Shown here: positions 60,922 to 64,000 of the stretch, piece after piece | Numbering within the stretch: position 1 is the first letter of the stretch | Layout: each line of letters opens with the position of its first letter | IMG/VR virus record: IMGVR_UViG_3300029982_000016 | Location: 1-64,000 of that record | Origin: a virus | DNA: 64,000 nt | Strand: one strand, 5' to 3' | Made by a program: the position numbers and the translations under genes | Notes under the pieces: generated by a model | The model's database searches: none | Seen by the model: only the letters and a program-made list of their open reading frames with translations | What the model was told of the DNA's origin: nothing

Positions 60922-61245
60922 ATGTTGAAGTTCTGCTTTGACGACGCCACCAAGCTGCGGCTGAAGACTGTATCCAAGAGCAAACTGACACTGCGGTGTC
61001 CCAAGCACCCACGCTACAACCCTGCACATGGCCGTGGTGCCATTATAGGGCGGTGCCAAGGCTGTGAGTCTGCACTGGAGGGTTACGAGGCTGCTATGAA
61101 TCTGCGGCAAGCTCTAGTGCGGTACGCTGCGGAGACCGAGCGGTTCGAGACTTCCAAGCCTCGAACCCGCAAGACGGTAAAACCCACACCTACTGTAAGT
61201 GAGCAAACACAGGGATGGATAAACGTCATCAAAAATGGCAGGTAG
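60922..61245 (+). CDS. Small zinc-ribbon-like protein (107 aa)
   Basis: ATG at 60922, one base after the protease gene's stop, with GGAGAG upstream. LRCPKHPRY near residue 24 and GRCQGC near 44 could form one zinc ribbon. A basic C-terminus (SKPRTRKTVKPTP) follows. Probably co-expressed with the protease. Function unknown. The 163 nt after it (61246-61408) show only a weak hairpin (CTCC/GGAG with TTTT at 61356-61371) and no convincing gene. Confidence 0.5.
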   Translation: MLKFCFDDATKLRLKTVSKSKLTLRCPKHPRYNPAHGRGAIIGRCQGCESALEGYEAAMNLRQALVRYAAETERFETSKPRTRKTVKPTPTVSEQTQGWINVIKNGR

Positions 61246-61408
61246 TTGCGGTTTCTTCCTCGTTGGTGTACTATGGATTTAATTCGTCAGGTACGCAAAC
61301 CCGCAAGGGTTTCGGGAAGGATTGGACGGCACAGATAAACCTGACTGAACCGTCCCTCCCTCGGGAGTTTTCAAATTTGGTTGTGTTAGCACCTCTGAAT
61401 TGTGTATT

Positions 61409-61561
61409 ATGAATGAGGTGATACTTCTTGGGAAGCAACTGGCGGGGTATTCGAGGGTGAAGTATCGTTTGCAGGCGGGAACCTCGAACCCGGAAAGTGA
61501 AAGTGGAGACAAAAGGCCAATCCATTTCATTGTTGAATTCGATAGCCGATGGTTATCGTAA
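61409..61561 (+). CDS. Small hypothetical protein (50 aa)
   Basis: ATG at 61409, no clear ribosome site. Product MNEVILLGKQL... looks like a short strand-helix peptide ending PIHFIVEFDSRWLS. No family recognised; could be chance. Confidence 0.3.
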   Translation: MNEVILLGKQLAGYSRVKYRLQAGTSNPESESGDKRPIHFIVEFDSRWLS

Positions 61562-61566
61562 GGCAC

Positions 61567-61656
61567 ATGGGGGTTGATTTCCACAACGGGGTGGTGGTAC
61601 TCTCAGTTTATGGGTTCCTCGGAGATACCGGGTTCGATGGTCCGGTTCCAGACTAA
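61567..61656 (+). CDS. Micro-ORF (29 aa)
   Basis: ATG at 61567, with TAAGG 3-7 nt upstream, 5 nt after the previous stop. Hydrophobic then acidic (GVVVLSVYGFLGDTG). Too short for any assignment. Confidence 0.2.
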   Translation: MGVDFHNGVVVLSVYGFLGDTGFDGPVPD

Positions 61657-61763
61657 CGTCAAGCCGAGTTTGGGTGGTGCAACACAGGCAGCACACCGAG
61701 GAATTTCACCTTGTACAGGTGCGTGGGTTGAAACATAAGCTGTGAAAATAAATGAAAAACAGC

Positions 61764-61793
61764 TTGCACAAATTTCAACTTTCTGCGTATTAT
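61764..61793 (+). promoter_or_regulatory. Candidate promoter for the 47-aa gene
   Basis: TTGCAC (61764-61769), 18-nt spacer, TATTAT (61788-61793). The -35 is a weak match. A short leader with AAGGA follows before the ATG at 61814. The 107 nt before it hold no gene. Confidence 0.35.
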
Positions 61794-61813
61794 GTAACAG
61801 AAGGACAAACACC

Positions 61814-61957
61814 ATGACTATCCGTACCAACATTTCGATTAACACCATGGACGCACCGAACACTGGCGTCGTGGGCGTAGTCGTAGCTGTCGCAGCCGCT
61901 GAAGCCGGTTGCGCGGGAGAGGATACCATGGCCTCGGGAGAGATTAAGACTAACTAA
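61814..61957 (+). CDS. Gly/Val/Ala-rich small peptide (47 aa)
   Basis: ATG at 61814 with AAGGA upstream. The middle (TGVVGVVVAVAAAEAGCAG) is small-residue hydrophobic and could be a weak membrane helix or a leader-like peptide; the end is polar. An ATG at 61742 in the same frame has no site. It has its own promoter candidate and a strong terminator 20 nt after its stop, so it forms a monocistronic unit. Function unknown. Confidence 0.45.
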   Translation: MTIRTNISINTMDAPNTGVVGVVVAVAAAEAGCAGEDTMASGEIKTN

Positions 61958-61977
61958 CCAGTCTGAAATCGAAACCG

Positions 61978-62009
61978 AGGCCAGCCGAAAAGGCTGGCCT
62001 TTCGTTTTT
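61978..62009 (+). terminator. Rho-independent terminator
   Basis: AGGCCAGCC (61978-61986), loop GAAAA, GGCTGGCCT (61992-62000), then TTCGTTTTT. A perfect 9-bp GC-rich stem with a T-run ends the rightward protein-coding operon just before the tRNA array. Confidence 0.9.
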
Positions 62010-62021
62010 GCAGTAAAGATT

Positions 62022-62097
62022 GCTCCGGTAGATTAGCGGCTAAATCATCTGCCCTACAAGCAGACTATCGTGGGTTCGAGTCCCACTTGGAGCACCA
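62022..62097 (+). tRNA. tRNA-Val (UAC)
   Basis: 76 nt with encoded CCA. Acceptor GCTCCGG/TTGGAGC with two G-U pairs, D-stem GATT/AATC, anticodon stem TCTGC/GCAGA with loop CCTACAA, T-arm GTGGG-TTCGAGT-CCCAC. Confidence 0.92.
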
Positions 62098-62127
62098 AGT
62101 TTTGGTTTTTGCAGTATTGAAGTATAT

Positions 62128-62202
62128 GCGGCTGTAGTTCAGTGGTAGAACGCTTCCTTGCCAAGGAAGAGGTCGTGGGTTCGAATCCCACCAGCCGCTC
62201 CA
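62128..62202 (+). tRNA. tRNA-Gly (GCC)
   Basis: 75 nt with encoded CCA. Acceptor GCGGCTG/CAGCCGC, D-stem GTTC/GAAC, anticodon stem CTTCC/GGAAG with loop TTGCCAA, T-arm GTGGG-TTCGAAT-CCCAC. The GTTTTTGCAGTA just upstream (62105-62116) repeats the one before tRNA-Val (62004-62015). Confidence 0.92.
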
Positions 62203-62206
62203 AGCT

Positions 62207-62314
62207 CTGGAGCAAGACTCCAGTCCACAAGACTGGGTAAGTTTACTTCGAGGGGCGCGGGTGGTGCCCCGGCGTGAGCCAAAGCCACCAAGATTTTTAA
62301 TCCCGGCCAGCCGG
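62207..62314 (+). ncRNA. Structured non-coding segment between tRNA-Gly and tRNA-Ala
   Basis: Several hairpins in 108 nt: CTGGAG/CTCCAG (62207-62212 with 62218-62223), CCAGTC/GACTGG (62220-62225 with 62231-62236), GGGGCGC/GTGCCCC (62252-62258 with 62264-62270), and GGC-GTGA-GCC (62271-62280), then a CCGG/CCGG stem to 62314. The first two share four bases and cannot form together. No complete tRNA cloverleaf could be drawn. Confidence 0.4.
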
Positions 62315-62339
62315 TGATTACATGATGTTTGACAATATT

Positions 62340-62418
62340 GGGCCGTGGAAATGCTAGGAGTGTTTATCTGTCTTGCACACAGAATATCAGCAGAGTTCAA
62401 ATCTCTGACGGTCCACCA
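62340..62418 (+). tRNA. tRNA-Ala (UGC)
   Basis: 79 nt with encoded CCA. Acceptor GGGCCGT/ACGGTCC includes the G3-U70 pair that marks alanine tRNAs. Anticodon stem TCTGT/ACAGA with loop CTTGCAC; T-arm CAGAG-TTCAAAT-CTCTG. The D-stem is weak (AAA/TTT) and the variable loop 7 nt. Confidence 0.85.
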
Positions 62419-62487
62419 AATTTGAAACCGAGGTCGAACAATTACCTCACCGTTTCTCTCGATGGTTTGTACCACAAGGAGAAAACG

Positions 62488-62832
62488 ATGGAAGTATTTG
62501 TAGATAGGTTCGGCAGCGTTGAGGATGTATGCGACCAGTTCAATATTGGTCAGGATGAATTGAAGGATGCGTTGGTCTACGCAGCGGTGTATAGCTACGA
62601 GGACTATTCGGGTTCGGCATTCGTTCTGTTCGAGAAGGACGGGAAGCTGTTCTCAGTAAGTGGCGGTCACTGCTCTTGCTACGGCTTGGAGGGTCAGTGG
62701 ACGCCTGAGGAAGAGAACTGGGAGACCATTTTGCACTGGTTGGATAAGGGTGAGATGTTCAATGAGTTCTCGGACGAGATGCGTGCTTACCTTCGTAGCG
62801 TGGCAGTACAGCGCACGTCGGCAGTACAGTAA
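62488..62832 (+). CDS. Conserved phage protein with HCSCYGLEGQW motif (114 aa)
   Basis: ATG at 62488 with AAGGAG 6 nt upstream. N-terminal helix (SVEDVCDQFNIGQDEL), then FVLFEKDGKLFSVSGGHCSC and YGLEGQWTPEE, an acidic C-terminus. I recognise the HCSCYGLEGQW-type block from small phage proteins of unknown function. It lies inside the tRNA array, between tRNA-Ala and the large non-coding RNA region. Confidence 0.65.
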   Translation: MEVFVDRFGSVEDVCDQFNIGQDELKDALVYAAVYSYEDYSGSAFVLFEKDGKLFSVSGGHCSCYGLEGQWTPEEENWETILHWLDKGEMFNEFSDEMRAYLRSVAVQRTSAVQ

Positions 62833-62840
62833 CAGCTTCG

Positions 62841-63475
62841 GCCTCGGTTTCATTAAGTATGCACTAGACTGGACAATCGCGACGTGGCGCAATACCACTT
62901 CGAGGAAGTTCGGAGCACCACAGAGCAGCGTATAGGGTAACACCCTAGCACACTTGTTCGGGGACGTAGCGTAAGGGGACGCAGCTATACGTCTGGTTGA
63001 TTTCCACCAACCCTATGGGAACAACCCGTCCGATGTTGAGTGTGACGATTAGAGCAACAGAGACGAGCCGATTAAATTCGGGTGAAACGGGCAATCTCTA
63101 CGCGGTGCAACCTCAAATAGGCCGACAGGTACTGCTCGTACCGTTATGAATCGGCGGGTTGGGGGCTAGAGCCAGACGGTAACGGCTGGCCGAGACGAAT
63201 GATTGTACAGGAGGGGTAACCCTCTGGACAGAACTCCGGCTATAAGTCTAGTGCAGAGTTTTAAGCGGGGTGACACCTACCGAGTCCTGCGGACTAAAGT
63301 GGTGTGGCACGGCGGAGAGGCGTCGAGAAATTGAGGAGATATGTGGAGGTACTATTTCTGGTGGCGGAGTTGGTCTTTTGGAAAGACCTTCCGATTGAAC
63401 AGTTCTCTTATGTGGGGATGTAGCTCATATGAGAGCTACCGATTCGGACCACTGGAGGTACGAAAATATCTCTGA
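62841..63475 (+). ncRNA. Large structured non-coding RNA candidate (about 635 nt) in the tRNA array
   Basis: No credible reading frame on either strand. An 11-bp perfect long-range pair (62860-62870 with 63245-63255) closes a first domain. Inside lie GTGG/CCAC (62884-62898), TAGGGT/ACCCTA (62933-62947), GACGTA/TACGTC (62963-62993) enclosing GCGT/ACGC, GGTTG/CAACC (62995-63012), GCCGA/TCGGC enclosing GGTAC/GTACC (63121-63155), GCCAG/CTGGC (63171-63190) and a GTAA tetraloop on GAGGG/CCCTC (63211-63224). A second domain is closed by GAGATAT/ATATCTC (63336-63342 with 63466-63472) around GGTCTTT/AAAGACC (63372-63388) and GTAGCTC/GAGCTAC (63420-63439). Position among phage tRNAs and length fit GOLLD- or ROOL-like giant RNAs. 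Exact ends unknown. Confidence 0.6.
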
Positions 63476-63481
63476 TTCAAA

Positions 63482-63555
63482 GCGGGTATAGCCAAGCGGT
63501 AAGGCAACAGGCTTCCACCCTGTCACCGTCAGTTCAAATCTGACTATCCGCTCCA
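63482..63555 (+). tRNA. tRNA-Gly (UCC)
   Basis: 74 nt with encoded CCA and U73. Acceptor GCGGGTA/TATCCGC, D-stem GCC/GGC, anticodon stem ACAGG/CCTGT with loop CTTCCAC, T-arm GTCAG-TTCAAAT-CTGAC. Begins 7 nt after the large RNA region. Confidence 0.9.
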
Positions 63556-63573
63556 AGTTTTGTTGGTGTTATA

Positions 63574-63649
63574 GGCGATGTGGCGAAGTGGTTAACGCGG
63601 CGGTCTGCAAAACCGTTATGCATGGGTTCGAATCCCATCATCGCCTCCA
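63574..63649 (+). tRNA. tRNA-Cys (GCA)
   Basis: 76 nt with encoded CCA. Acceptor GGCGATG/CATCGCC, anticodon stem GCGGT/ACCGT with loop CTGCAAA, T-arm ATGGG-TTCGAAT-CCCAT. The discriminator is U73, a cysteine identity base. Confidence 0.92.
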
Positions 63650-63665
63650 ATTTGAAAGGAGAGCG

Positions 63666-63875
63666 ATGAAGATTAACTTCGATGCCGACATGAGAAGCGT
63701 TCATACCCGACTGGCTGGTGAAGAGAACAACATTCGCCTCAGTCCTGAGCAGTGGCAAGAGTTTGTTGCAATGTTGGAAAGGCCAACACAGCCGAATGAG
63801 AATTTACGTCTGCTGTTGACGGAGCCCTCGGTATTAGAAAGGATAAATATGCTGAACAGTGGCAAAAGGTTTTGA
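63666..63875 (+). CDS. DUF1778/TacA-like antitoxin-type small protein (69 aa)
   Basis: ATG at 63666 with AAAGGAGA upstream. Residues 26-52 (LSPEQWQEFVAMLERP, then PNENLRLLLTE) match the C-terminal pattern of DUF1778 antitoxins (L-s...W..F...L..P..pn..L..LL). The N-terminal part is short and shows no sure ribbon-helix-helix. No GNAT toxin lies next to it; tRNAs flank it on both sides. TacA partners acetylate tRNAs, so a countermeasure role is thinkable, but this is inference. Confidence 0.5.
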   Translation: MKINFDADMRSVHTRLAGEENNIRLSPEQWQEFVAMLERPTQPNENLRLLLTEPSVLERINMLNSGKRF

Positions 63876-63883
63876 TGTTTTAG

Positions 63884-63958
63884 GGGCCTGTAACTCAGTG
63901 GGAGAGTGCTTCCATGGCATGGAAGAAGTCGAGGGTTCAATCCCCTCTAGGTCCACCA
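63884..63958 (+). tRNA. tRNA-Ala (GGC)
   Basis: 75 nt with encoded CCA. Acceptor GGGCCTG/TAGGTCC with G3-U70, D-stem ACTC/GAGT, anticodon stem CTTCC/GGAAG with loop ATGGCAT, T-arm GAGGG-TTCAATC-CCCTC. Second alanine tRNA in the array. Confidence 0.92.
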
Positions 63959-63977
63959 AATTTTAGTAGAGGATGTG

Positions 63978-64000
63978 ATGCCGGAGAGTTCCCTTCGGGT
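63978..64000 (+). CDS. Possible start of a further gene at the right edge (partial)
   Basis: AGAGGA is followed by an ATG at 63978 and an open frame to the edge. Only seven codons are visible. Confidence 0.2.

Follow-up and report, generated by a model that had tools for sequence, protein, structure and literature searches.

The main part of a folded, non-coding stretch in the tRNA cluster of a phage is, judged from its sequence, a phage-borne gene encoding RNase P RNA, a ribozyme that in bacteria trims the precursors of tRNAs. The stretch lies in a window of 64,000 nucleotides (positions 1 to 64,000 of IMG/VR record IMGVR_UViG_3300029982_000016). When the whole window was searched against 4227 Rfam families, RNaseP_bact_a (RF00010; curated gathering cutoff 100 bits) matched at 62861-63258 with 162.5 bits (E 1.5e-50). 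This match covered the complete model (positions 1-367) and was the top match of its clan at this place, and of the 81 model pairs for which both positions carry a letter, the window RNA forms 74.

A sequence-only reading had put forward about 635 nt here as a candidate giant RNA with two long-range closures. Both closures are exactly complementary: a perfect 11 bp stem joins 62860-62870 (TGCACTAGACT) to 63245-63255 (AGTCTAGTGCA), and a perfect 7 bp stem joins 63336-63342 (GAGATAT) to 63466-63472 (ATATCTC). The model alignment identifies the 11-bp closure as helix P1 of the RNase P RNA. The reading was also right that the stretch is flanked by a small ORF and tRNA-Gly (ORF list, ARAGORN), and that it lacks a credible gene; the ORF list contains no convincing ORF, on which ground protein coding was ruled out. 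Dense folding was borne out against dinucleotide shuffles, with z-scores of -2.8 for 62856-63260 (0/100 shuffles) and -4.0 for 63257-63481 (0/200 shuffles), and the GTAA motifs are present in hairpin loops of the RNase P RNA, P8 and P18 by our reading. A large structured non-coding RNA does lie inside the phage tRNA array, and its core helices P4 and P6 covary among phage homologues. The single 635-nt RNA did not survive: the region is structured, but as far as can be shown it holds two neighbouring elements, the RNase P RNA (about 62860-63258) followed by a distinct one of ~150 nt (Table 1).

Table 1. Features of the RNase P RNA locus (window coordinates)
Feature	Position	Strand	Basis
Upstream tRNAs Val(tac), Gly(gcc), Ala(tgc)	62022-62418	+	ARAGORN
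Small ORF upstream of the RNase P RNA	62488-62832	+	ORF list; alternative TTG start 62329
Class A RNase P RNA gene (rnpB-like), full length	62861-63258	+	RF00010; model pairing
Helix P1, 5' strand	62860-62870	+	Sequence and model alignment; partner 63245-63255
Catalytic helix P4, 5' strand	62907-62915	+	8/8 pairs; covaries in phage homologues
Pseudoknot P6, 5' strand (GAGC)	62923-62926	+	4/4 pairs with 63134-63137
Enlarged specificity-domain arm	62948-63046	+	Model alignment; 88 nt longer than model; fold z -1.9
Pseudoknot P6, 3' strand in loop L17 (GCUC)	63134-63137	+	Pairing; covariation
Helix P4, 3' strand	63234-63241	+	Pairing; covariation
Helix P1, 3' strand	63245-63255	+	Sequence and model alignment
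Folded element closed by 63336-63342/63466-63472	63330-63478	+	z -4.5, 0/200 shuffles
Downstream tRNAs Gly(tcc), Cys(gca), Ala(ggc)	63482-63958	+	ARAGORN; tRNA-Gly is 63482-63555

Catalytic core and specificity domain

The window RNA resembles bacterial class A RNase P RNA (rnpB) in its full-length model match with helices P1-P5 and P7-P11, in a P4 helix with a bulged U, in the P6 pseudoknot and in the conserved GAGGAA and ACAGAA blocks. It differs from it in being phage-encoded in a tRNA array, without an RnpA gene on the contig, and in structure: 43 model positions are absent, one arm has gained 88 nt, and four P4 pairs are changed on both sides.

The P4 and P6 pairs are outside the Rfam model pairs, and their numbering was verified against the E. 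coli K-12 rnpB sequence. We compared them in 16 phage RNase P RNAs, gathered through pattern scans and relatives. The bulged U of P4 (62910 in the window), which corresponds to E. coli U69, is kept in 16/16 of these RNAs, and 100% of the P4 and P6 cells with letters on both sides are paired, where it should be noted that the 3' strand of P4 was the best-pairing ACAGAA site (a choice that favours pairing, within the limits set by the anchor), that the 3' strand of P6 was searched as the complement of the 5' strand, and that the P6 partner of L009 was not located and was scored as N. Changes on both sides occur in 7/12 P4 and P6 pairs, and P6 itself comes as GAGC/GCUC, GAAC/GUUC and GGGC/GCCC. 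Counting cells as sequences rather than as independent events, we observed 29 double-change cells versus 8.2 +- 2.1 after shuffling (0/500 shuffles) and <=5 when the partner strand was slid. At the level of sequence, the catalytic core is shown to be intact and covarying in the phage RNAs.

Relative to E. coli, the window P4 has changed both partners of 67-359 (A-U to G-C), 68-358 (G-C to U.G), 71-356 (C-G to G-C) and 73-354 (G-C to A-U). The change of C71-G356 to G-C was rejected as a hallmark of phages because it is also common in Peptostreptococcaceae and Acidimicrobiia. The U at P4 position 68, which the window shares with L051 and L058, is absent from the matches in these two groups.

The specificity domain is both reduced and enlarged. 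In the RF00010 alignment, the 43 model positions that follow GGGTGAAA are absent from the window RNA; we take them to be P13 and P14, and the same P13/P14-like part is lost in L050, L009, L024 and L051 (0-1 nt left). By the model alignment the window RNA therefore lacks P13/P14 as a class A feature. Since these helices are peripheral, we treat it as a class A variant and not as an outsider, and because the P13/P14-like positions are missing, its efficiency may be low. The enlarged arm is P12 by our reading. In bacteria, a GGU in L15 binds the CCA end of the tRNA, in a motif that varies among them; at the corresponding place, the window has GGGCAA and L051 has CGGTAAA. A separate observation was made in L054 (1531-2256, minus strand; record G039, 138.6 kb), where an HNH endonuclease-like ORF (Pfam HNH, E 6e-6) interrupts another phage RNase P RNA gene within a peripheral specificity-domain loop; L028 has a similar RNA without the HNH ORF.

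Phage setting, relatives and the neighbouring element

Contamination of the window with host DNA was rejected on the basis of its phage genes, the tRNA array, the terminase in G008 and the lack of 16S rRNA. The window encodes Baseplate_J, a DnaB-like helicase, a DnaC-like loader and ribonucleotide reductase, and a terminase is present in G008 (67 kb; identical across the 3.5 kb compared) as well as in relatives. The phrog_2 terminase was found in 7/22 records, G000 not among them. No 16S rRNA match was obtained in 22 records, in a search that was not fully sensitive, as the control was detected in just 9/14 genomes.

The array runs past the window end and comprises 17 tRNAs in ~6 kb. The amino acids decoded over its length (L034 2023-7829, window 62022 onward) are limited to Val, Gly, Ala, Cys, Asp and Glu, with more than one tRNA for several of these. 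The small ORF, when read from 62329, had no Pfam match and belonged to no known family; the DNA from tRNA-Ala through this ORF to the RNase P RNA is 69% identical in L050.

Relatives of 100, 184 and 231 kb, found via their ribonucleotide reductase, likewise have an RNase P RNA among their tRNAs. The order Val-Gly-Ala-RNaseP-Gly-Cys-Ala is kept in the 184 and 231 kb contigs, and in the 100 kb relative the two Gly tRNAs are swapped. RF00010 matches above gathering in or near tRNA arrays were obtained at L003, L006, L009, L011, L012, L015, L018, L020, L024, L025, L028, L031-L033, L050-L052, L186-L188 and L190, on contigs of up to 318 kb, with L018/L031, L020/L032, L186/L188 and L051/L052 being near-duplicates within this list. 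Matches without nearby tRNAs (e.g. L004, L005, L008, L013), which may be bacterial DNA, were left uncounted, and L189 was left out as a pattern match with no RF00010 match above gathering. At about ten phage loci a tRNA lies 0-11 nt from an end of the RNase P RNA, and L186 and L015 have such a close tRNA at either end; the distance is <=4 nt, or there is slight overlap, in L003, L009, L012, L020, L024, L033 and L186. A tmRNA is also carried by L020, L025, L032 and L187. A reduced form of ~200 nt occurs in L055 and L056 (1501-1714 in each, on contigs of 296 and 476 kb), with a score of 48.9 bits, which is below gathering, a fully paired P4 and A-U at position 71. A pattern made from the L17 region had no match in viral contigs. 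In an RNase P RNA tree, weakly supported and including few bacteria, the phage sequences were not grouped.

Five queries against INPHARED for a cultured phage with an RNase P RNA gave an assembly listed as Salmonella and other matches that were likewise unsuitable, namely 'Acinetobacter phage MD-2021a' contigs and unannotated faecal contigs. Microcystis phage MaAM05 (MW495066.1; L063 3965-4364) has a full class A RNase P RNA with 251.8 bits that adjoins fabI, engB, mtgA and glyS. We set it aside as a phage example because these bacterial neighbour genes made us suspect bacterial DNA in the record, a contamination that is possible.

The second folded element of the window, at 63330-63478, had no Rfam match, and a pattern derived from it matched only the near-identical contig L011. 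ARAGORN with relaxed cutoffs gave chance-level calls only in 63260-63480, and a tRNA or tmRNA was rejected there. In L050 the next tRNA follows ~55 nt past the RNase P RNA, which is too short for an element of such size, and in L051 the interval is occupied by a different sequence. The latter (~1836-1953) is tRNA-like: it has a normal T arm and an acceptor GAGTGCT/GGCACTC, and its D loop apparently contains a hairpin insert.

Proposed role, alternatives and meaning

The explanation that we favour, and consider likely from the sequences at hand, is that the phage encodes its own class A ribozyme in the tRNA array, which would recruit host RnpA to mature polycistronic phage tRNAs. The RNase P RNA would be co-transcribed with the tRNAs of the array, and its ends would be made partly by tRNA processing, as tRNAs abut the RNA in several phages; with a tRNA directly downstream, the 3' end of the RNase P RNA would be generated by RNase P itself. 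Phage RNA and host RnpA would then assemble into a hybrid holoenzyme and cleave the 5' leaders from phage pre-tRNAs, and the gain might be more RNase P capacity for the phage tRNA load, or capacity that is kept when the host supply is limiting. In favour of this explanation are the RF00010 score far over the cutoff, the full pairing and covariation of P4 and P6, the conserved placement among tRNAs in the three large relatives and the close spacing of tRNAs to RNase P ends. The contigs also carry phage genes, and no RnpA was found in 24 records (none at E<=1 in 21; the control was detected in 10/14 genomes), an absence that is not proof because the records are classed linear by IMG/VR and may be fragments. 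Against it stand the missing P13/P14-like positions and the fact that T4 seems to manage with host RNase P RNA: this RNA is stable in T4 infection and was suggested to possibly serve phage tRNA processing (PMC9697503), a result that agrees with a dependence on the enzyme of the host.

The altered specificity domain and the failure to find a phage RnpA gene would also fit a decoy, a phage RNA that binds host RnpA, starves host RNase P and slows the host tRNA supply. We regard this as unlikely, since a decoy has no need of the intact P4 with its bulged U that all the phage RNAs compared have kept, and since the RNA is located in phage tRNA arrays, which need RNase P themselves. Equally unlikely, in our estimate, is a changed specificity, by which the enzyme would serve phage mRNAs or odd phage tRNAs and not the general tRNA supply; the reduced and enlarged parts of the specificity domain and the odd tRNA-like sequence of L051 point in this direction, but the core is that of an ordinary RNase P. 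The strong sequence variation between phages and the weakly supported tree without a phage grouping would fit a relic, a recently captured and functionless host gene hitch-hiking in the tRNA array. This we consider quite improbable because P4 and P6 covary through compensatory changes, and the gene is kept in diverged relatives. The least tenable explanation is a GOLLD/ROOL-type or new giant RNA across all 635 nt: GOLLD and ROOL are large structured RNAs of phages that often lie close to tRNA islands (PMC12286853), and the window RNA is like them in size, dense structure and setting, but neither covariance model matches (nothing at gathering in the whole window, at E<=1 within 61000-64000 or at E<=10 within 63255-63485), RF00010 covers the first 398 nt, and the second element would not fit before the next tRNA of L050. 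The proposal of a new ornate class is refuted for 62861-63258 by the RF00010 match, and only 63330-63478 stays without a class.

RNase P belongs to the small number of near-universal ribozymes; it counts as a housekeeping enzyme of the cell, and phages are generally assumed to depend on the host version. An RNase P RNA of their own resembles the other translation genes of huge phages (tRNAs, tmRNA, tRNA synthetases, CCA-adding enzyme), in that translation supply is taken over. The huge-phage survey reported tRNAs and tmRNAs, for which alone its methods list finders, and RNase P RNA is unmentioned in its main text (PMC7162821); megaphages have been recognised partly by tRNAs and a tmRNA as the sole RNAs detected (PMC8172020). 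We found no earlier report of a phage-encoded RNase P RNA in open-licence full texts, a body of literature outside which most subscription papers and preprints fall, and we provisionally regard it as a new observation.

Altogether, our data suggest that some large phages come with a tRNA-processing ribozyme of their own. The broader proposition is that several large-phage lineages carry RNase P ribozymes, some near 200 nt, that are embedded in tRNA arrays, matured by tRNA processing and combined with host RnpA, taking over or re-aiming tRNA maturation as an undescribed viral hybrid RNase P; we hold this to be evenly balanced between true and false. If true, viruses would be able to take over the first step of tRNA maturation, and natural divergent and miniature RNase P RNAs would become available for structure-function work. 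For annotation, an RNase P RNA match would be no proof of cellular DNA, and the need of big phages for private tRNA processing would become testable.
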